A stretch of 22,404 bases of DNA from Lachnospiraceae bacterium (lineage in GTDB: Bacteria > Bacillota_A > Clostridia > Lachnospirales > Lachnospiraceae). The stretch lies in the NCBI GenBank assembly GCA_003446335.1, contig DMAZ01000106.1:1-22404 (forward strand), read 5' to 3'. Positions 5,436 through 22,368 of this stretch are shown here, in pieces. The position numbers and the translations under genes were made by a program. A model generated the notes under the pieces. The model was not told the origin of the DNA and made no database searches. It was given only the letters and a program-made list of their open reading frames with translations. Position 1 is the first letter of the stretch. Every line of letters starts with the position of its first letter.

Positions 5436-6134
5436 ATGAACTATCTGAGAAAGAATTCCAATGAGTTTCAGAGCGGGTATACCGGCTGCTATTTAAAACC
5501 GGCGACCTGCCCTCACTGCGGGACAGGTACCGATGCGGTCTCGACGGCAAGAGAGATTTTCGCGTATTCCGGCAGCTCGAATCTTCTGCTTTCCGCAGCC
5601 AAGTGTACGAGCTGTCACAGGACATTTTTCTTCGCTAACCTCCGGGAATCCGGCAACAGCGATGCAGAGGTCGTCTGCATGTATCCCGACAAAAATATAG
5701 TGTACGAAAACGATACGCTGAAAAAGGTATCTCCGCGCTTTATACGCATGTACAACCAGGCTTTGTATGCGGAGAAGAACGGAGACACGGAACTGGCAGC
5801 TATCGGCTACTGTACGGCACTTACGACACTGATCAAGGACTATGCGATCGGTGTACTCGGAAAACCTGCAGAGGAGGTCGCTTCCAGAAATCTCTATCAG
5901 GTCATAGGGGATTATCTTCTTCAGAAAGAATTGATCAATACACCCGACCTGATACGTATCCTCGGAGATGATTATGTTCATTATAATGATCGTTATCCGA
6001 CCAGGGATCTTGTGATCCTGAAGGGATACATGGAGATTTTTCTTAAACAGATCGAGATGCAGCTTTTGATCAGGAGTGCCGATGATGTGACTTTAAAAAG
6101 CGATATTGACAGAGTGGAAATGAAAGAAGGATAA
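5436..6134 (+). CDS. Zinc-ribbon and DUF4145 domain-containing protein
   Basis: This 232-residue protein has two CxxC pairs (CPHC at about residues 25-28 and CTSC at about 57-60) that form a probable zinc ribbon. A helical C-terminal part (about residues 100-200; RFIRMYNQALYAEKNGDTEL is its first helix) resembles DUF4145 (PF13643). DUF4145 has no established biochemical function; some members are fused to or sit near nucleases, but nothing of that kind is here. The frame opens at ATG 5421 without a ribosome site. The ATG at 5436 is preceded by GGAGAGG at six bases and is preferred. The ROK kinase start lies 48 bases downstream, suggesting cotranscription. A weak TTGACG (5353-5358) is the only -35-like element upstream, with no convincing -10. 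Confidence 0.75.
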   Translation: MNYLRKNSNEFQSGYTGCYLKPATCPHCGTGTDAVSTAREIFAYSGSSNLLLSAAKCTSCHRTFFFANLRESGNSDAEVVCMYPDKNIVYENDTLKKVSPRFIRMYNQALYAEKNGDTELAAIGYCTALTTLIKDYAIGVLGKPAEEVASRNLYQVIGDYLLQKELINTPDLIRILGDDYVHYNDRYPTRDLVILKGYMEIFLKQIEMQLLIRSADDVTLKSDIDRVEMKEG

Positions 6135-6182
6135 TTATACTGGAACAGGTATTGAATACAGCAGGTATTGAAGGAGAACAGT

Positions 6183-7085
6183 ATGAATTATTTTGCCGTT
6201 GACATCGGAGGAACATTTGAAAAATTTGCCGTCATTACTTCCGAAGGAGATTTTCTTGCCAAGGATAAAATTCCGAGTATTATAAATGATCGACAGCGAT
6301 TCCTTGACTCGATAGAGGATCAGTTCCATGCTTATGAGAAGATATACGGAAAACTTGCCGGAATCGCGATCAGCATGGCGGGCGTGCTGGATGTTGAGAA
6401 AGGGTATGCATACAATGCGGGAGCGATCCTGAGCGTCCGGGAGATGAACATAGCCGAATATTTTTCCGAGCGCTGCAAGGTTCCGGTCACGATTGAAAAT
6501 GATGCCAAAGCCGCAGCACAGGCCGAACTCTGGAAAGGGAACCTGAGTGATGTATCGAGCGGCGTGGTCATCGTGCTGGGAACAGCTATCGGAGGAGCCG
6601 TTATTGTAGACAGAAAAATCGTACGGGGAAAGCATTTCTTCGCCGGCGAATTCAGTTATGTGATGAGGGGCGATCACCGGAACGCGGACATCTCGAATAT
6701 GTGGGGATACAACGGGGGAACGCTCGGGCTGGTGAAGATGACTGCTGAGAAGAAGAATATTCCCGAAGAAGAGCTGGATGGTTTTAAGGTCTTTGAACTT
6801 GTGAACAGCGGCGATGAGGAGGCAATGGATATTTTTCGGGATTATTGTGCAGGCCTGGCTTACAGGATCTGGAACCTTCATGCAGTCCTTGACCCGGACA
6901 GGATCCTGATCGGAGGCGGTATAAGCGCTCAGCCGATTCTTCTTGAGACTGTCAGAGAGGAGCTGGATAAAGTGGCGGCCATTCAGCCCAATGATCAGAA
7001 AGCACCCGAAGTAATGACCTGCAGATTCTTCAATGATTCCAACATGATCGGTGCGCTCTACGCGCATCTTCTGAGAAATCCTTAA
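6183..7085 (+). CDS. ROK family sugar kinase-like protein
   Basis: This 300-residue ROK (repressor, ORF, kinase) protein lacks an N-terminal winged helix, so it is a kinase type and not a repressor. The ATP phosphate-binding loop is AVDIGGTFEKFAV near the N-terminus. ENDAKAAAQAE supplies the catalytic aspartate region, GTAIGGAVIV the second phosphate motif and ILIGGGISAQ the adenosine motif. The CxCGxxGC zinc motif of many ROK glucokinases is absent. In its place the segment FAGEFSYVMRGD resembles the GEFGY-type segment of zinc-free beta-glucoside or N-acetylmannosamine kinase-like ROK members. It probably phosphorylates a hexose or amino sugar with ATP in the cytoplasm. A TTG at 6168 could extend the frame, but AAGGAG (6171-6176) lies six bases before ATG 6183, which is preferred. 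The GPH transporter downstream is a possible functional partner. Confidence 0.85.
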   Translation: MNYFAVDIGGTFEKFAVITSEGDFLAKDKIPSIINDRQRFLDSIEDQFHAYEKIYGKLAGIAISMAGVLDVEKGYAYNAGAILSVREMNIAEYFSERCKVPVTIENDAKAAAQAELWKGNLSDVSSGVVIVLGTAIGGAVIVDRKIVRGKHFFAGEFSYVMRGDHRNADISNMWGYNGGTLGLVKMTAEKKNIPEEELDGFKVFELVNSGDEEAMDIFRDYCAGLAYRIWNLHAVLDPDRILIGGGISAQPILLETVREELDKVAAIQPNDQKAPEVMTCRFFNDSNMIGALYAHLLRNP

Positions 7086-7111
7086 GGTTGTACAGACAGC
7101 TGTGGACTGCC

Positions 7112-7140
7112 TTTACAGTGGTCCTGTTCTGTGTTATAGT
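7112..7140 (+). promoter_or_regulatory. folT: Sigma-A promoter of the THF riboswitch-folT unit
   Basis: TTTACA (7112-7117) and TATAGT (7135-7140) are separated by 17 bases. Each matches consensus at five of six positions. The expected transcript start near 7147 lies about 20 bases upstream of the riboswitch P1 stem, as expected for a riboswitch-controlled unit independent of the ROK gene. Confidence 0.7.
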
Positions 7141-7166
7141 AGCTCTGAAAAAGATGAATAGAGTCA

Positions 7167-7266
7167 GGCAGAGTAGAATCCGGCGCGTTAAGTGCTGTGT
7201 GTACGGGGAGTTGACATGCAGACGAAAAGCGATACGCTTGCGGTACCGGATTCGCATCCCACTGCT
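7167..7266 (+). promoter_or_regulatory. Tetrahydrofolate (THF) riboswitch
   Basis: The conserved sequence and fold of the THF riboswitch are present. P1 is GCAG (7168-7171) with CTGC (7262-7265), followed by the conserved AGTAG. P2 is AATCCGG (7177-7183) with CCGGATT (7246-7252). The invariant GCGTTAAGTG core (7185-7194) follows. P3 is CTGTGT (7195-7200) with ATGCAG (7216-7221). ACGAAAAGC and GCGGT flank P4 (AAGCG 7227-7231 with CGCTT 7235-7239). A pseudoknot pairs GGGA (7206-7209) with TCCC (7257-7260). The usual GGGATGT of the pseudoknot strand reads GGGAGT here, apparently one base shorter. The element is known from Firmicutes upstream of folT and folate biosynthesis genes and normally lowers expression when THF binds. 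The downstream folT gene fits exactly. Confidence 0.9.
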
Positions 7267-7283
7267 ACATTAATATGGATATG

Positions 7284-7330
7284 ACCTCCTTATATATGTA
7301 GTTAGCGGATAACTGCGAAAGGAGGTTTTT
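7284..7330 (+). promoter_or_regulatory. Ribosome-site-sequestering hairpin, expression platform of the THF riboswitch
   Basis: ACCTCCTT (7284-7291) is an exact complement of the folT ribosome binding site AAGGAGGT (7319-7326). GTAGTTA (7298-7304) pairs with TAACTGC (7310-7316) inside it, so the hairpin would hide the Shine-Dalgarno sequence. A competing helix, CTACAT (7265-7270) with ATGTAG (7296-7301), overlaps both the 3' edge of the riboswitch P1 and the sequestering hairpin. This fits an OFF switch acting on translation. Five T (7326-7330) follow the stem, so premature termination could also contribute. Confidence 0.75.
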
Positions 7331-7864
7331 ATGTTCAGAGAATCAGCTAAGGAACTCCGAAAAGTGCAGGCTATCGCAATCTGCGGCGTTATGGGAGCAC
7401 TCGCTATCGTTCTTGGGTATGTGGCGACGATCAGGATCGGCGACTATATCCGGGTAGGCTTCTCCTTCCTTCCGAATGTGATCATTGATTTCCTGTTCGG
7501 ACCGGTAGTTGGGGGCGTGTTCGGCGGTGCCATGGATATCATTAAGTATCTGATGAATCCGACCGGTCCCTTTTTTCCGGGATTTACGATCAGCGCAATT
7601 GTCGGAGCGGTGCTGTACGGAGTCATCCTCTATCGGCAGAAGATAACCGTTCTCAGAGTGTTCATGGCTCAACTTGCGGTCAAGGTAGCTGTGAACCTGG
7701 TGCTCAATACGCTGTGGCTCGTAATGCTGTACGGATACGGTCTTATGGCTATTCTTCCGGGGCGTATTATTTCAAATGCCGTTATGCTTCCGATCGACAC
7801 CTTTATAACATATGTGGTGCTTATTTTTATTCAGAAGAACTTAAGGCATCTTCTGAAGTTCTGA
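7331..7864 (+). CDS. folT: Folate ECF transporter S component (FolT-type)
   Basis: This 177-residue hydrophobic protein has about six membrane segments and the folate-family S-component pattern. It has an N-terminal SAKELRKVQ amphipathic lead, FSFLPNVIIDFLFGPVVGG, and the GGAMDIIKYLMNPTGPFFPG / FTISAIVG segment typical of FolT. S components capture the vitamin and work with a shared ECF module (two ATPases and EcfT) encoded elsewhere; none is in this window, as usual for group II transporters. The start ATG 7331 follows AAGGAGGT with a five-T spacer. The upstream THF riboswitch independently supports folate as substrate. Confidence 0.93.
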   Translation: MFRESAKELRKVQAIAICGVMGALAIVLGYVATIRIGDYIRVGFSFLPNVIIDFLFGPVVGGVFGGAMDIIKYLMNPTGPFFPGFTISAIVGAVLYGVILYRQKITVLRVFMAQLAVKVAVNLVLNTLWLVMLYGYGLMAILPGRIISNAVMLPIDTFITYVVLIFIQKNLRHLLKF

Positions 7865-7894
7865 TAAATCATGGCATCGGTTTTGTGAAAAGTA

Positions 7895-7923
7895 TTACTT
7901 TACGTATCTAATGATGGTATACT
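7895..7923 (+). promoter_or_regulatory. Predicted extended -10 promoter for the STAS-kinase pair
   Basis: TATACT (7918-7923) is preceded by TG at the extended -10 position (TGG at 7915-7917). The best -35 is a poor TTACTT (7895-7900) at 17 bases, so recognition would rely on the extended -10. It lies in the gap between folT and the STAS gene, which holds no clear terminator. Confidence 0.5.
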
Positions 7924-7973
7924 AGAATAAATAATTATTTTTTGAAGGCAGATTGTACTGCCGGGGAGGTTTC

Positions 7974-8270
7974 ATGGATATTAATCTTCAGAGAGACGGA
8001 GGCACACTCACGATAGGCATCACGGGCAGATTGGATACGATTACATCGCCGAAGCTCGATGATGCTCTTCACGCTGAAATCAAAGGAGTCACAGAGCTGA
8101 TTTTTGATCTTGATCAGCTTGAGTATATCTCCTCTGCCGGTCTGCGTGTACTGCTTGGGGCTCAGAAAATCATGAACAAGCAGGGCAGTATGGTTGTAAA
8201 GAATGTAAAACCGATGATCATGGAAATATTTGAGGTCACCGGATTCGACAGCATTCTGACGATTGAATAA
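7974..8270 (+). CDS. STAS domain anti-sigma factor antagonist (SpoIIAA/RsbV-like)
   Basis: This 98-residue protein is a single STAS domain. Its signature is GRLDTITSPKL (18-28), a hydrophobic strand IFDLDQLEYI, then SSAGLRVLL, where Ser54 is the expected phosphorylation site by comparison with SpoIIAA. In partner switching the unphosphorylated STAS protein binds an anti-sigma kinase and frees its target; phosphorylation by that kinase breaks the complex. The likely kinase is the next gene, 45 bases downstream. The frame extends to TTG 7953, but GGGGAGG at 7963-7969 immediately upstream of ATG 7974 fixes the start. No sigma factor gene lies beside it, unlike the spoIIA and sigB operons, so its target is unknown. 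Confidence 0.9.
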   Translation: MDINLQRDGGTLTIGITGRLDTITSPKLDDALHAEIKGVTELIFDLDQLEYISSAGLRVLLGAQKIMNKQGSMVVKNVKPMIMEIFEVTGFDSILTIE

Positions 8271-8315
8271 CAAGCTGTCGAAGGTTCTTGTTCAATACAG
8301 AGAAAGGATTTCTAT

Positions 8316-8741
8316 ATGGCAACAATCACTGTTCCTGCCATCCTGGGGAATATACCTGTTGTTACTCAGTTCATAGAAGATAATCTGGAGCAGGCCGGCT
8401 GTCCGATGAAGGAAATGATGCAGATCGAGATGGCCACAGATGAGATTTTCAGTAATATCTCTTACTATGCATATCCGAAAAATGAACCCGGGGAAGCGAC
8501 TGTTCACGTGGATGTGGATGTTTCGTCATCAACAGTGGATGTGACATTTGAAGATGCCGGGATCGCGTTCAACCCTTTGGATATCAGAGAGCCTGACGTA
8601 TCTCTCTCCGTTGAAGAGCGCAGTCCCGGAGGTTTGGGTATTTTCCTGGTACGAAAAGTAATGGATGCTCTGACCTATGAGCGGGTCGGCAATAAGAATG
8701 TTCTTCATATTAGGAAAAAATGGCAGCCTGAGGAAAGTTGA
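8316..8741 (+). CDS. Anti-sigma factor serine kinase-like ATP-binding protein (RsbW/SpoIIAB type)
   Basis: This 141-residue GHKL ATPase has the RsbW/SpoIIAB layout. The N box is EMATDEIFSNISYYAY (E43 and N47 would bind Mg-ATP and catalyse), the G1 box DAGIAFNP (80-87) and the G2 box GGLGIFLV (105-112). The spacing and short length match HATPase_c_2 anti-sigma kinases. It probably phosphorylates the upstream STAS protein on serine and sequesters a sigma factor or another target. GAAAGGA lies upstream of ATG 8316 at suitable spacing. The pair STAS then kinase is the classical order, but the sigma factor that normally follows is missing; the next gene, 144 bases on, is a sugar symporter. Confidence 0.88.
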   Translation: MATITVPAILGNIPVVTQFIEDNLEQAGCPMKEMMQIEMATDEIFSNISYYAYPKNEPGEATVHVDVDVSSSTVDVTFEDAGIAFNPLDIREPDVSLSVEERSPGGLGIFLVRKVMDALTYERVGNKNVLHIRKKWQPEES

Positions 8742-8885
8742 TATCTGAAACAAAGATGTGGAGGAACTAAGACTCTGTTTTACGGGTTCTAAGCTGATGC
8801 CGGTGTGGTATGACATTCCGGATCAGAGCGGAAGAACGGTAATCAGGGTCTTTTATGTTATATTTGGCATGAAAAGGACATCATT

Positions 8886-10310
8886 ATGGAAAACAGACAT
8901 TCACTAAGCGCAGGAGAAAAAGTTTCCTATGGACTCGGAGCTGTAGGCAAGGACATGGTATATATGCTCTCCGCAAGCTATGTACTGTATTATTTTCAGG
9001 ATATTCTTGGTGTCAGTGCTGTCGCTATGGGCTTTATCCTGATGGCAGCCAGAATATTTGACGCATTCAATGATCCGATCATGGGTGTGATCGTAGCGAA
9101 AACGAAGACGAGATGGGGCAAATTCCGTCCATGGCTCCTGATCGGTACGATTACCAATGCAGCCGTTCTTTTCTGCATGTTCTCCTGTCCGCCGGCCCTT
9201 GACGGCCCGGGAATGACAGCATATGCCGCTGTGACTTATATTCTTTGGGGCGTCACATATACGATGATGGATATTCCATATTGGTCTATGATACCGGCGT
9301 TCACGGAAGGAGGCAGGGAGAGAGAAAATCTCACGACTCTTGCCAGATCCTGTGCGGGCGTGGGTTCCGCGATCATCACCATCGTCACTGTGATCTGTGT
9401 CCAGAAGCTGGGCAGGATGATCGGCGGGGCAGGCGCTGCCTCCAGAGAGGTAGAGAGGATAGGATTTAAATATTTTGCGCTGGCCGTCGCCGTGATCTTC
9501 GTGATCACGATCGTACTGACCTGTGTGAATATAAAAGAGAAATCTACAGTGGACATGAAAACGGCTTCTCTCGGGGAGATGTTCCGTGCACTGATCACCA
9601 ACGATCAGACGCTGACCGTTGTTCTGGCGATCGTCCTGATCAACAGTGCCATGTACATCACATCGAACCTGGTCATTTATTTCTTTAAGTATGATTTCGG
9701 CGGAACGACCTGGTATAACAGCTATACCCTTTTTAACACGTTCGGAGGAGCCGTACAGATCCTGTCCATGATGCTGTTCTATCCGCTGCTCCGCAGATTC
9801 TTTACAGGTATCAGGATATTCTACATCTGTCTCTGCATGGAGATCGTCGGATATGGAGTGCTGCTGATTCTGGCCTTTACGAATATGTCGAATGTCTTTC
9901 TGCTTTTCATCCCGGGCTTCTTTATATTTGCGGCGAGCGGCATGCTGAATGTTCTGACCACGGTCTTCCTTGCAAATACCGTAGATTATGGAGAACTCAG
10001 GAATAATCGGAGAGATGAGAGCGTTATTTTTTCCATGCAGACATTTGTCGTAAAACTGGCATCGGGCGTCGCTGCTTTCATTGCGTCTCTGTCTCTTCAG
10101 ATCTTCAGTCTCAGTCAGGATGCGGAAGCGCCCGAGCAGGCTGTTGACTTTTCGCAGTCAGTCGCACAATCGTCGAAAGTAGGTCTTCGGATGACTATGA
10201 CGATCCTTCCGATCATCGGTCTTTTTGCTGCCTGGTTCTGGTTCAGGAAGAGATATATTCTTGATGATCGGAAATTAGAGGAAATATCTCTGGAACTTAA
10301 AAGGAGGTAA
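8886..10310 (+). CDS. GPH family (MelB/XynP-like) sugar:cation symporter
   Basis: This 474-residue protein has about 12 predicted membrane helices and clear GPH family motifs: GKDMVYMLSASYVLYYFQD, then RIFDAFNDPIMG with D59 and D63 spaced like the cation-binding aspartates of MelB, RWGKFRPWLLIGT, and the mid-protein DIPYWSM segment (TYTMMDIPYWSMIPAF). It would import a glycoside, pentoside or hexuronide with Na+ or H+ across the cytoplasmic membrane. AAAAGGA precedes ATG 8886. A TGTTATATT extended -10-like sequence (8856-8864) lies close upstream, so the gene may have its own promoter. No glycosidase sits beside it; the ROK kinase at 6183 could handle an imported sugar, which is inference. 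The lipoprotein gene downstream starts 11 bases after its stop. Confidence 0.92.
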   Translation: MENRHSLSAGEKVSYGLGAVGKDMVYMLSASYVLYYFQDILGVSAVAMGFILMAARIFDAFNDPIMGVIVAKTKTRWGKFRPWLLIGTITNAAVLFCMFSCPPALDGPGMTAYAAVTYILWGVTYTMMDIPYWSMIPAFTEGGRERENLTTLARSCAGVGSAIITIVTVICVQKLGRMIGGAGAASREVERIGFKYFALAVAVIFVITIVLTCVNIKEKSTVDMKTASLGEMFRALITNDQTLTVVLAIVLINSAMYITSNLVIYFFKYDFGGTTWYNSYTLFNTFGGAVQILSMMLFYPLLRRFFTGIRIFYICLCMEIVGYGVLLILAFTNMSNVFLLFIPGFFIFAASGMLNVLTTVFLANTVDYGELRNNRRDESVIFSMQTFVVKLASGVAAFIASLSLQIFSLSQDAEAPEQAVDFSQSVAQSSKVGLRMTMTILPIIGLFAAWFWFRKRYILDDRKLEEISLELKRR

Positions 10311-15758: not shown

Positions 15759-17111
15759 ATGGACGAAGGGGGTTTGACACCCTGGCTCATATCCGCGCTG
15801 CTGATCCTGTTCGCGGATTACATTGCCATCTGTGAGACGGCACTGGCATCAGCTTCGAAAGTAAAAATGAAGACCCTGGCCGAGCACGGCAATAAGAATG
15901 CTGTGAAGGTCCTCGACGCTCTCGATCATTTTGATCGTACCATCAGCGCCATACTGATACTGACCAATATCGCGCATCTTGCAACGGCTTCCCTGGTCAC
16001 CGTTGCAGTCACCAGAAGGTGGGGACTCTCCGCCGTTACAGTCAGCACGATCCTGACATCTCTTGTAGTCTTCTTCTTCGGTGAAATGCTTCCCAAAAGT
16101 ATTGCGAAAAAATACAGCAACCGATTAGCCCTGTGGTGCATAGGGCCTCTTAGTGTGCTCATAAAGATCCTGACGCCCGGTACGGCAGTTCTGGCAGCGA
16201 TTGGGAATTTTGCCAGTAAACTGACGAAGGGAGATCCTGAAATATCTGTTACGGAAGATGAAATTCATGACATTATTGAGGATATGACGGAATCCGGCAG
16301 TCTGGATGAGGAGCATGGAGAGCTGATTTCCTCCGCGCTGGAATTCAATGATATCACTGTGGAGAGCATCCTGACTCCCCGCGTTGACGTGATGGGAATC
16401 GATATCGATGAAGATGCCGATACCATTCTTGAAATTGTGCGCAATACGAATCACAGCAGACTGCCGGTCTATGAGGGCAGTATCGATAATATTATCGGTA
16501 TTCTCAGGATCCGCAGATATCTTCGTGCCTATATCGGAGCGCGCCGGACGGCAAGGGAAGGAGAGGTTCCGGAGGTCAATATCCTTAAGCTTCTCGATGA
16601 GCCGCTGTATGTTACCGAGAGTGCCAAGGTCGATGAGATCCTTCCCCAGATGTCTGCCCAGAAACAGAACATAGCGATCGTTTCGGATCATTTCGGCGGC
16701 ACAGCAGGAATCGTGACGGTCGAAGATATCGTTGAATCTCTGGTCGGCGAGATCTGGGATGAGGAAGATGAGATAGAGGATCCGTTCATGTATCTCAGGA
16801 ACGGGAGTTATCTTGTGGATGCCGAGGAGACGGTCGAGGACGCATTTGACTTTATCGGCTTTAAGGATCCCGAAAATGATGAGAGCCTCACGAACAAGAG
16901 GATCGGTGAGTGGGTCTATGAGCATTTCTCAATGATCCCGAGAGCAAGGGAGCACTTTGAGTACCACGGCCTTCGCATCTATGTCGCAAGAATGGATCAT
17001 AATCGGATCCGAAAGGTCATGATCACTCCGGCCCAGGAGGGAGACGGCAAGGATGATAAGGATGCTCAGCCGGATGCCCACAGCCGGAAAAAGGGAGGTG
17101 ATGACGCATGA
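15759..17111 (+). CDS. CNNM/CorC family protein (DUF21-CBS-CorC_HlyC), paralogue 1
   Basis: This 450-residue protein has a DUF21/CNNM membrane domain (about 1-150), paired CBS domains (about 190-340; TPRVDVMGIDIDEDADTILE and LPVYEGSIDNIIGILRIRRY mark the first) and a C-terminal CorC_HlyC domain (about 350-435), ending in a charged tail. Family members are Mg2+ or other divalent-cation transporters or regulators, with CBS domains that bind ATP. The GEMLPKSIAKK helix motif is present, but the usual SxSE motif reads AICE and the GNN motif reads ILTNIAHL, so the ion site may be altered. AGGAGG (15741-15746) lies 12 bases before ATG 15759, longer than usual, and no in-frame alternative exists. The gene overlaps paralogue 2 by four bases. 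Confidence 0.92.
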   Translation: MDEGGLTPWLISALLILFADYIAICETALASASKVKMKTLAEHGNKNAVKVLDALDHFDRTISAILILTNIAHLATASLVTVAVTRRWGLSAVTVSTILTSLVVFFFGEMLPKSIAKKYSNRLALWCIGPLSVLIKILTPGTAVLAAIGNFASKLTKGDPEISVTEDEIHDIIEDMTESGSLDEEHGELISSALEFNDITVESILTPRVDVMGIDIDEDADTILEIVRNTNHSRLPVYEGSIDNIIGILRIRRYLRAYIGARRTAREGEVPEVNILKLLDEPLYVTESAKVDEILPQMSAQKQNIAIVSDHFGGTAGIVTVEDIVESLVGEIWDEEDEIEDPFMYLRNGSYLVDAEETVEDAFDFIGFKDPENDESLTNKRIGEWVYEHFSMIPRAREHFEYHGLRIYVARMDHNRIRKVMITPAQEGDGKDDKDAQPDAHSRKKGGDDA

Positions 17112-18376
17112 TAACATATCTTGTCATAGCCGGGATCATACTCTGCATCTACCTCTCGGGTTTTTTCTCGGGCTCGGAGATGTCCTACTCTTCGTGCAAT
17201 ACGATGCGGCTTGAGAGCGAGAAGGAAGAAGGATCGAAAAAGGCCGGTCTTGCACTATACATAGCGGAACACTTTGATGATGCTCTGGGTGCGATACTGA
17301 TCGGGAACAATCTTGTCAACATTGCTTGTTCTTCACTGGGCTCCGTTGCGGTGATCCTTATTGCGGGTACGGACAAATATGCCTGGATCGCCACTGTGCT
17401 CATCACGATCGCCGTCATTATCTTCGGCGAGACGATTCCGAAGATCACGGCGAAAAAAGGGGCAAATATATACGCAAAGAAGTACGCTTATGCGATTCGC
17501 GCGCTCATGATCATCTTAAGGCCGCTGGTCCTCATTGTAGTCGGACTTGTCTACCTCATGACCCTGCCCATGAAAGGGGAGATCGAGGAAGATCCCGATG
17601 AAAAAAAGGAAGAGCTGACGTCCATTATAGAGACGGCCGAAGATGAGAGCGTGATCGATGAAGAGGAGAGTGAGCTGGTCCAGGCGGCGATCGAGTTCAA
17701 TGATACATCCGCCCGGTCAGTCATGACGGCAAGAGTCGATGTGCTGGCGATCGATATTGACGATTCGGAGGAAGAAATCCTTGATACGATCAGTCAGTCC
17801 CACTATACAAGACTCCCTGTCTATGAGGGAAATATCGACCATATTATCGGCGTTCTTCATCTGAACAAATACCTGAAAGCACTGACAGAGGGAGAAGTTA
17901 CCGATATACGCTCTCTGCTCATGGAGCCCTGCTATGTTTATAAGACCATGAAACTTCCGGAAGTGCTGGCTGCATTTCGTCAGGCAAGGCAGCATTTGGG
18001 CATTGTCGTGGATGAATATGGCGGAACGCTCGGCATTATTTCGATGGAGGACGTTCTGGAGGAGGTCGTTGGTGAGATCTGGGATGAGACAGATACGGTA
18101 GAGGATGAGGTCCACAGGCGGAACGACGGGCTCTATGAGATCGATGGGGATATGACGATTCCCGATTTTCTGGAACTCGTCGGTATCAGAGAAGACACCT
18201 TTTCATGCGAGAGTAAGACAGTCGGAGGATGGACGATCGAGAAATTCGGGAGATTCCCCGAGGAGGGGGAGAAGTTCACATATGCCAATATCACTCTCAT
18301 GGTCCTTGAGATGGGAGAGAGGCGTGTTGAACGGGTCCTGGTAAAGATCGATGAAGCTTCGGCCGAATCCGAATGA
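17108..18376 (+). CDS. CNNM/CorC family protein (DUF21-CBS-CorC_HlyC), paralogue 2
   Basis: This 422-residue protein has the same domain order as its upstream neighbour: DUF21 membrane domain (about 1-170), CBS pair (about 195-330, with LPVYEGNIDHIIGVLHLNKY) and CorC_HlyC (about 340-415). Unlike paralogue 1 it keeps canonical membrane motifs: SGFFSGSEMSYSS, GAILIGNNLVNIACSSLGS and IFGETIPKITAKK, so a functional divalent-cation site is likely. Its ATG overlaps the paralogue 1 stop (ATGA at 17108-17111), which points to translational coupling; GGGAGG lies just upstream. The tandem, coupled arrangement suggests a heterodimer, since CNNM/CorC proteins are dimers. The radical SAM gene follows 21 bases after the stop. 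Confidence 0.93.
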   Translation: MITYLVIAGIILCIYLSGFFSGSEMSYSSCNTMRLESEKEEGSKKAGLALYIAEHFDDALGAILIGNNLVNIACSSLGSVAVILIAGTDKYAWIATVLITIAVIIFGETIPKITAKKGANIYAKKYAYAIRALMIILRPLVLIVVGLVYLMTLPMKGEIEEDPDEKKEELTSIIETAEDESVIDEEESELVQAAIEFNDTSARSVMTARVDVLAIDIDDSEEEILDTISQSHYTRLPVYEGNIDHIIGVLHLNKYLKALTEGEVTDIRSLLMEPCYVYKTMKLPEVLAAFRQARQHLGIVVDEYGGTLGIISMEDVLEEVVGEIWDETDTVEDEVHRRNDGLYEIDGDMTIPDFLELVGIREDTFSCESKTVGGWTIEKFGRFPEEGEKFTYANITLMVLEMGERRVERVLVKIDEASAESE

Positions 18377-20947: not shown

Positions 20948-20993
20948 AAGACACCGCCTGCAGGGAATAGATAATTCCTGTGAGCGGTGTCTT
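20948..20993. terminator. Bidirectional terminator between fumC and the methyltransferase-STAS gene
   Basis: AAGACACCGC (20948-20957) pairs exactly with GCGGTGTCTT (20984-20993), with an inner imperfect pairing of CAGGGAAT with ATTCCTG. On the plus strand TATTATATAT follows; on the minus strand TTCTGTTTTTAAT follows. It suits the two convergent genes. The 160 bases between the fumC stop and this stem show no gene. Confidence 0.8.
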
Positions 20994-21045: not shown

Positions 21046-22287
21046 TTACAGGCCGAAAATATCTGCGTATCCTGTCATCTCCAGTACGGAGAAGACGTCC
21101 GTTCCGACATTCAGCAGCTTGACCTTGTGCATCGGGGTCCCCTTGTACATGATCAGCAGGACACGAAGTCCGGCAGAAGAGATATAATCGAGATTCGAGA
21201 AATCCAGATGGACCATGCGGAAACTCTTCTTATTCAACTCGTCTTCGTAGAAGTCCAGAAGTTTAGGAGATGTGAGAGAATCCAGACGTCCGTCGAGCGT
21301 AATTTTAAGGATACCGTTAATTATTTCGTGGCGGATGGAAAGTGTTCCGTCAGGGGTCGTGAAGAGAGCTGCCAGCCTGTCCATGGCGGTCGTTGTGTCG
21401 TCCTCCGCGATGACGGAGAGGCAGACGCCGCTGTAGGCATCCCGGCATGCTTCTGCGATTTCTTCGCTCACCAGAGAAAGAGATTCGATATGGATGCCGC
21501 CATCGTAGAACGGCATCTTTTCTTCCTTCAGGTGAAGCTCAGAGAGGATATCGGCCCCGAGCATTTCAACCGGGACCATGTCCTGTGCCACGAATTGTTC
21601 TCCGAAGATCTCTCGAATTTTATCACTGCGCATACTGTTAAAATCTGAAAGAGCATCCTCTCCGCAGACAGCACCGAACCCTGCACGGGTATACGCCGTT
21701 TCATCGAAATCGGGGGTGATCCAGACGCCGCCGTGACGGAGAAGGACTGTGCGAATATTTTCGATGACCGTCCATAGTTCGGACTCGGTAAAGTATGGAA
21801 GCAGACCTTCTGTCACAATGATCAGCTCATCACCGAGGGAATCGGCGGCATCGCTCAGAGAAGCGGCATTGGTCGCGTCGACTTCCCTGTAAGCAATTCC
21901 CTGTGAGGCACCGCCCATGGCAGCCACTGCAGGCTGGATCTGTGCGATGATCGCCGGCAGATCGGCACCGAGGATGTTATAGCCGGCTGCAGCGAGAGCA
22001 GAAACTCTGGGTGAAAAGCCGCAGCCGAGATCGAGAACATTCCGGATACCGGTCTTCTCAATTGCCCTGTTGATGGCTTTGTAGCGGAATTCAGCGTTAA
22101 TTATTTCTGCTGTATCTGTTATTTTGTCAGATGAAAAAGCGCGTTCCGCAGAATCAGGCGAATTTTTTCTGACCGCCTTATAAAGTTCAACGGCTTCCGG
22201 AACCCCGGCTGCCGCAAGAGCGGAAAGGGAGTAGTCTGCCGACGAAACAACGGGATTGATTTTTTCAAATGATTTTAAATCGCTCAT
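21046..22287 (-). CDS. Methyltransferase-STAS fusion protein
   Basis: This 413-residue protein joins two domains. Residues about 40-240 are a class I SAM methyltransferase resembling leucine carboxyl methyltransferase-type O-methyltransferases: NVLDLGCGFSPRVSALAAAG (SAM loop about 84-94), ILGADLPAIIAQIQP and VTEGLLPYFTESEL (about 158-171). Residues about 240-310 are a helical linker. Residues about 315-413 are a STAS domain with GRLDSLTSPKLL, HLDFSNLDYI and SSAGLRVLL; Ser371 is the expected phosphorylation position. The STAS part closely resembles the stand-alone STAS protein at 7974-8270. The start is ATG 22287, eight bases after AGGAG; the longer frame to 22365 has no such site. The methyl acceptor is unknown. 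A STAS domain fused to a methyltransferase suggests control by partner switching, which is inference. Confidence 0.87.
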   Translation of the reverse strand: MSDLKSFEKINPVVSSADYSLSALAAAGVPEAVELYKAVRKNSPDSAERAFSSDKITDTAEIINAEFRYKAINRAIEKTGIRNVLDLGCGFSPRVSALAAAGYNILGADLPAIIAQIQPAVAAMGGASQGIAYREVDATNAASLSDAADSLGDELIIVTEGLLPYFTESELWTVIENIRTVLLRHGGVWITPDFDETAYTRAGFGAVCGEDALSDFNSMRSDKIREIFGEQFVAQDMVPVEMLGADILSELHLKEEKMPFYDGGIHIESLSLVSEEIAEACRDAYSGVCLSVIAEDDTTTAMDRLAALFTTPDGTLSIRHEIINGILKITLDGRLDSLTSPKLLDFYEDELNKKSFRMVHLDFSNLDYISSAGLRVLLIMYKGTPMHKVKLLNVGTDVFSVLEMTGYADIFGL

Positions 22288-22368
22288 GCAAATATCTCCT
22301 GAAAATTTATTCTTCACCGCGCAATACTCGTGACGTGAGTCTACGATACGCGCGCAAAGTGACACCCG

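Follow-up and report, generated by a model that had tools for sequence, protein, structure and literature searches.

A conserved fusion of an LCMT/PPM-type methyltransferase with a STAS domain and its putative control by partner switching

The gene at 21046–22287 (minus strand) of the 22,404-nucleotide stretch of DNA analysed here (the window) specifies a protein of 413 amino acids, with an ATG start, that combines an LCMT/PPM-type SAM methyltransferase with a STAS domain. Known STAS domains are either adaptor proteins in their own right or components of transporters and sensors. The fusion is a member of a conserved family whose most likely role is that of a putative peptide or natural-product O-methyltransferase gated, via STAS, by an RsbW-type kinase. 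The complete scheme, with an RsbW-type kinase and a SpoIIE-type phosphatase as the switch and a peptide or natural product as the substrate, has in our view about an even chance of being correct. In such a widespread family, with the phospho-acceptor domain built into a methyltransferase, partner switching would act directly on a metabolic enzyme, and the family could help to show what is controlled by the kinase/phosphatase modules of these gut anaerobes.

Architecture, conservation and origin of the fusion

An AGGAG ribosome-binding site (22296–22300, minus strand) lies 8 nt upstream of the ATG. The class I SAM methyltransferase domain, of the LCMT/PPM1 fold, occupies residues 1–298 (21394–22287, minus strand). 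When the predicted structure was compared with known structures, residues 5–298 gave LCMT/PPM1 as the best fold match, and the first 13 matches were PPM1, LCMT-1, Rv0731c, ML2640 and TYW4. Its PF04072 score (13.2 bits) is below the Pfam gathering score of 22.3, which is passed by the two relatives tested from a subclade described below, L140 (36.6 bits) and L143 (40.3 bits). The sequence D86-L-G-C-G90 (22018–22032, minus strand), which we take to be motif I, is near invariant across the 75 distinct copies, out of 95 fusion ORFs, on which all conservation counts from the full-length alignment are based. Among the residues presumed to touch SAM, Asp86 is found in 71/75, Cys89, Gly90 and Asp109 each in 74/75, and Asp137 in all; Glu160 is present in 61, the remaining 14 having Asp.

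The C-terminal domain (residues 312–413; 21049–21354, minus strand) of the window fusion has the SpoIIAA-type STAS fold; with NCBIfam TIGR00377 it scores 48.2 bits, under the cut-off of 53.45. Ser371 (codon 21175–21177, minus strand) is located in the loop between strand 3 and helix 2 and aligns with SpoIIAA Ser58. It is retained in 74 of the 75 distinct copies, L156 having Ala, while Asp336, the Asp of the GRLD motif, is present in all 75 and Arg334 in 74; conservation at the key positions of the STAS domain is as strong as in the SAM site. The structure model (pTM 0.69), in which the folds are read per domain and the packing between domains is uncertain, shows two folds joined in one protein. 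The original prediction of an LCMT-like methyltransferase and a full STAS domain in a single ORF is thus borne out by fold, profiles and alignment, and, of the serine pair to which it pointed, Ser371 is the one that matches Ser58. Ser or Thr at the phospho-acceptor place is, however, described as broadly conserved among STAS proteins (PMC7367683), so that Ser371 alone is no proof of a switch.

Comparison of the 75 fused with 76 unfused STAS domains revealed R334, D336, Y368, S370, S371 and A372 to be common to both; the equivalent of Arg334 is Arg in 72/76 of the unfused domains also. The two sets differ at residue 344 in helix 1, a contrast spotted by inspection and without prior prediction (Leu, Ile or Val in 73/75 fused; Glu or Asp in 70/76 unfused), and at residue 380, which is mostly Met in the fused domains and Ala or Leu in the others. 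With the STAS-kinase interface residues taken from PMC10120452, the shared kinase-facing loops together with the change at residue 344 suggest that the fused STAS has retained its kinase face and may have gained a new contact surface.

A genome search with the single window sequence picked up no relative. Of the 93 proteins matched by a profile of the methyltransferase half, 88 possess STAS, and the remaining five are short or garbled sequences. In a STAS-domain tree (134 domains; few columns, quick method) the 57 fused rows need two label changes. The sole unfused row among them, L157, is part of a fusion gene that a stop has broken, and the other 76 unfused rows are separated by a 97% branch. 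The methyltransferase tree, also made by a quick method, carrying a long-branch warning and using 37 of 48 unfused candidates (200–330 aa), places 79 fused rows on one side of a 98% branch and the 37 unfused rows opposite; the two unfused methyltransferases checked (L124 and L181) belong to PF04072. Since both domain trees are compatible with one fusion event, a single origin is the simplest history, and the family is probably old. A chance or degenerate fusion was rejected in view of the 88/93 proteins with STAS, the domain trees and the conserved Ser371 and SAM site. Rarity, degeneracy and loss of the serine or the SAM loop, against which the prediction had been set, were looked for and not seen, apart from the Ala of L156 and a few broken copies.

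Several individual copies deserve mention. L026 and L157 are fusion genes broken into pieces; L156 is intact with Ala in place of Ser371. Two loci on viral contigs gave partial 30% matches confined to residues 34–203. A Methanobrevibacter MAG has a serine-bearing fusion copy (L022, 4881–6152) and, on a separate contig, a STAS-kinase-SpoIIE run (L151, 1884–4452), which reflect either transfer into the archaeon or a binning error. A further copy (WP_014430897.1) is carried by plasmid pSRC2 of Selenomonas ruminantium TAM6421, a named strain in which the partner-switching idea is testable. Where database names are given, members of the family appear as "STAS domain-containing protein," "anti-anti-sigma factor" or "hypothetical protein."

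Genes adjoining the fusion in the window and in relatives

Downstream of the fusion gene lies the convergent fumC; upstream, the window stops after 117 bases. A long hairpin (20948–20993) between the two convergent genes might serve as a two-way terminator: an 80-base stretch of this region gives about -29 kcal/mol per strand, and the terminator scanner reported none. Elsewhere in the window (15759–18376) there is a tandem pair of CNNM/CorC-type ion transporter genes.

The kinase gene at 8316–8741 (plus strand), with which the original prediction suggested testing phosphorylation of the fusion, does specify an RsbW/SpoIIAB-like protein (HATPase_c_2; PF13581, E 3.8e-21) and is a candidate partner. 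Its matches include RsbW (6m36, E 4.8e-5) and SpoIIAB (1til, E 1.3e-3), and NCBIfam RsbW models match it far below their cut-offs. Directly ahead of it is a standalone STAS gene at 7974–8270 (plus strand; PF01740, E 4.1e-16; TIGR00377, 71.4 bits, over the cut-off), which the prediction had not listed and the product of which is likely its own partner; the pair (7974–8741) sits upstream of an MFS sugar transporter gene, 12 kb away from the fusion. Since the kinase has its own STAS beside it, nothing ties it to the fusion at that distance. No match to the SpoIIE profile was obtained in the window, nor any profile match to an NHLP gene or a Nif11-like leader, so that the window does not qualify as an NHLP/Nif11 RiPP locus.

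Across the family the fusion gene has no constant neighbour. Within 5 kb of the 75 distinct loci, SpoIIE is found at four (1.2 expected, P 0.037), a standalone STAS gene at six and a profile-verified kinase at two; any partner-switching gene occurs at eight, the window's copy not among them. The raw kinase count of four included L232 and L234, which carried the label "hat2" alone; as a second kinase this label was rejected, having no Pfam or NCBIfam match. Because the kinase family is present in 46/46 genomes and the phosphatase family in 45/46, with or without the fusion, co-occurrence is uninformative for partner switching.

More telling gene orders are seen in a subclade of 11 fusion loci, which stands on a 100% branch in the methyltransferase tree and includes L140, L142, L143, L232 and L234; in each of these five a standalone STAS gene, at the least, lies in one same-strand run with the fusion. 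In L140 one strand carries SpoIIE (6064–7809), kinase (7784–8206), two STAS genes (8220–8555 and 8590–8901) and the fusion (8903–10132), one base separating the second STAS gene from the fusion. L143 has, on one strand, SpoIIE, STAS, kinase, an NRPS gene (AMP-binding, PP-binding and Condensation domains), a Zn ribbon gene, an HD protein gene and the fusion, the first three lying more than 5 kb from the last. The order in L142 is STAS, fusion, NRPS, Zn ribbon; in L232 an NRPS fragment and a Zn ribbon (by profile), GGDEF, STAS, fusion; in L234 there are 2 bp between STAS and the fusion. In the main group, the fusion of L027 is divergent from genes for SpoIIE, a HATPase kinase and a cyclic-nucleotide-binding protein. 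Kinase, STAS and PP2C phosphatase accompany the fusion in L140 and L143, and divergently in L027. The proposal that the fusion is switched by a partner-switching kinase draws support from these runs and from the conserved Ser371, against which stands the presence of such a gene at just 8/75 loci; partner switching is thereby supported in part, through the relatives, and for the window's copy it is plausible.

A second enzyme-STAS family, with an N-terminal STAS domain and an APH-type phosphotransferase (L239, 13469–14647; L030, 7992–9173), was noted, with 48 similar genes in 11/15 genomes, in places in tandem and near methyltransferase-STAS genes; the one copy tested (L239) contains PF01740 and PF01636. 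We also noted a recurrent condensation-like neighbour of 424–444 aa (L239, 15029–16303; L027, 10316–11590; L248, 4443–5777; and three copies in L012). The copies tested match nothing in Pfam or NCBIfam, and a low-confidence model of the protein (pLDDT 55.5) resembles PapA5/BAHD/condensation enzymes, nearly all of the 50 Foldseek matches listed being of the BAHD/condensation superfamily as judged by their titles.

Both kinds of gene recur near the fusion. STAS-APH genes occur within 5 kb of 7/38 fusion loci (10/48 genes vs 0.34 expected) and a condensation-fold gene near 5/38 (6/21 genes vs 0.15 expected), in 15 genomes the choice of which was not blind, with several loci orthologous and with expectations that take no account of gene length or orthology between loci. 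The 48 STAS-APH genes are what remained of 66 rows after 17 phosphotransferase-part-only rows and one C-terminal fragment were dropped; short fusion fragments were left out too.

The sampled lineages nearest to the window group are L001 and L248 (support 91/80, full-length tree, long-branch warning), both of which have Nif11-like double-glycine leader peptides. The order in L001 is SpoIIE, kinase, NHLP secretion gene, NHLP exporters, ECF sigma, fusion and three Nif11-like leaders, the first of them 22 bp past the fusion; as far as the fusion, L243 is arranged alike, judged by length and sequence start. In L248 the fusion is followed by the condensation-like gene and two Nif11-like leaders. The L001 exporters score over the cut-off (TIGR03796, 949 bits; TIGR03797, 722 bits) and its NHLP secretion gene under it (28.8 bits); the leaders in L001 and L248 reach 17–29 bits against a curated cut-off of 32.3, one L001 leader being without an NCBIfam match. 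L156, the tree placement of which is less secure, has on one strand a STAS-APH gene, an NHLP-type exporter (648 bits, under the cut-off) and the fusion.

NHLP exporters are not commoner near fusions (2/73 loci) than near plain STAS genes (4/50). Leaders are found at 3/73 fusion and 1/50 plain STAS loci, with a profile for which two of its three matching loci had themselves supplied the sequences, and the concentration of peptide genes near the window's lineage was recognised post hoc. In L033, L065, L070 and L080 plain STAS genes share loci with NHLP-type exporters (by profile), L065 having SpoIIE/kinase and Nif11-like leaders in addition; some NHLP peptide loci may routinely include partner-switching genes.

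Proposed mechanism and alternative readings

We propose that an RsbW-type kinase would bind the unphosphorylated STAS domain and phosphorylate Ser371, and that a SpoIIE-type phosphatase would remove the phosphate. In one phospho-state the methyltransferase would be free, in the other bound to a partner. A small peptide or a natural product might be the substrate, the methyl group probably going to the oxygen of a carboxyl or hydroxyl group; this is suggested by the Nif11-like leaders of the nearest lineages and by the NRPS or condensation-fold genes beside other copies. More tentatively, one RsbW-type kinase and a SpoIIE-type phosphatase could directly control how exported peptides or NRPS products mature in gut and rumen anaerobes, through both the STAS-tagged methyltransferase and the APH-type phosphotransferases, with no sigma factor involved.

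It is rather unlikely that the fusion is instead an anti-sigma antagonist, the methyltransferase half of which senses SAM or a substrate and by this binding decides whether STAS can titrate an anti-sigma kinase, the output being transcription and not methylation. The kinase-facing signature shared with free STAS proteins would fit such a role, as would the ECF sigma gene between kinase and fusion in L001 and, by sequence start, in L243. RsbW-type kinases of known systems, however, bind group-3 sigma factors and not ECF factors. Many SAM-site positions are near invariant, which also argues against it. So does the serine-bearing copy in the Methanobrevibacter MAG, if the binning is right, as archaea are not known to have sigma factors.

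Slightly less probable is that STAS is a fixed docking tag which recruits the enzyme, with other STAS enzymes such as the STAS-phosphotransferases, to a stressosome-like complex with no phospho-switch. The excess of STAS-APH genes near the fusion (10 vs about 0.34 expected, at 7/38 loci) and the hydrophobic residue 344 peculiar to fused STAS are what one might expect of it, but docking alone need not demand that Ser371 be kept in 74/75 copies and the GRLD Asp in 75/75, and kinase and phosphatase genes are present in some fusion runs. That STAS is a roleless relic on a simple small-molecule methyltransferase we consider improbable: most copies are away from partner-switching genes and L156 has lost the serine, yet 88/93 profile matches retain STAS, the other five being short or garbled, and its key positions are conserved as strongly as the SAM site.

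Comparison with known systems

The original prediction knew of no described methyltransferase-STAS enzyme; likewise no description was found among the open-access literature matches listed, most subscription journals being outside their coverage. The methyltransferase is like LCMT-1/PPM1 (PF04072) in fold (residues 5–298) and in its conserved SAM site, and differs in that the window copy is under the Pfam cut-off and the fused methyltransferases form a separate 98% branch. The definition of the NHLP exporter and Nif11 leader families goes back to Haft et al. 2010 (PMC2887384), the main text of which has no match for SpoIIE or anti-sigma and one word beginning "stas." L001 resembles these systems in having TIGR03796 and TIGR03797 over the cut-off, with leaders under the cut-off in L001 and L248; the window differs, having neither exporter nor leader.

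Unlike SpoIIAA/RsbV, the STAS domain of the fusion is joined to an enzyme and no sigma factor is tied to it, and the GELD of SpoIIAA has Glu where the GRLD of the fusion has Arg. The BtrU-BtrV-BtrW and HsbA-HsbD systems are partner switches with non-sigma outputs. In SypA-SypE, as described in PMC10120452, phosphorylation of STAS also steers a non-sigma output. In all three the STAS is a separate protein, whereas in the fusion it is part of the enzyme.
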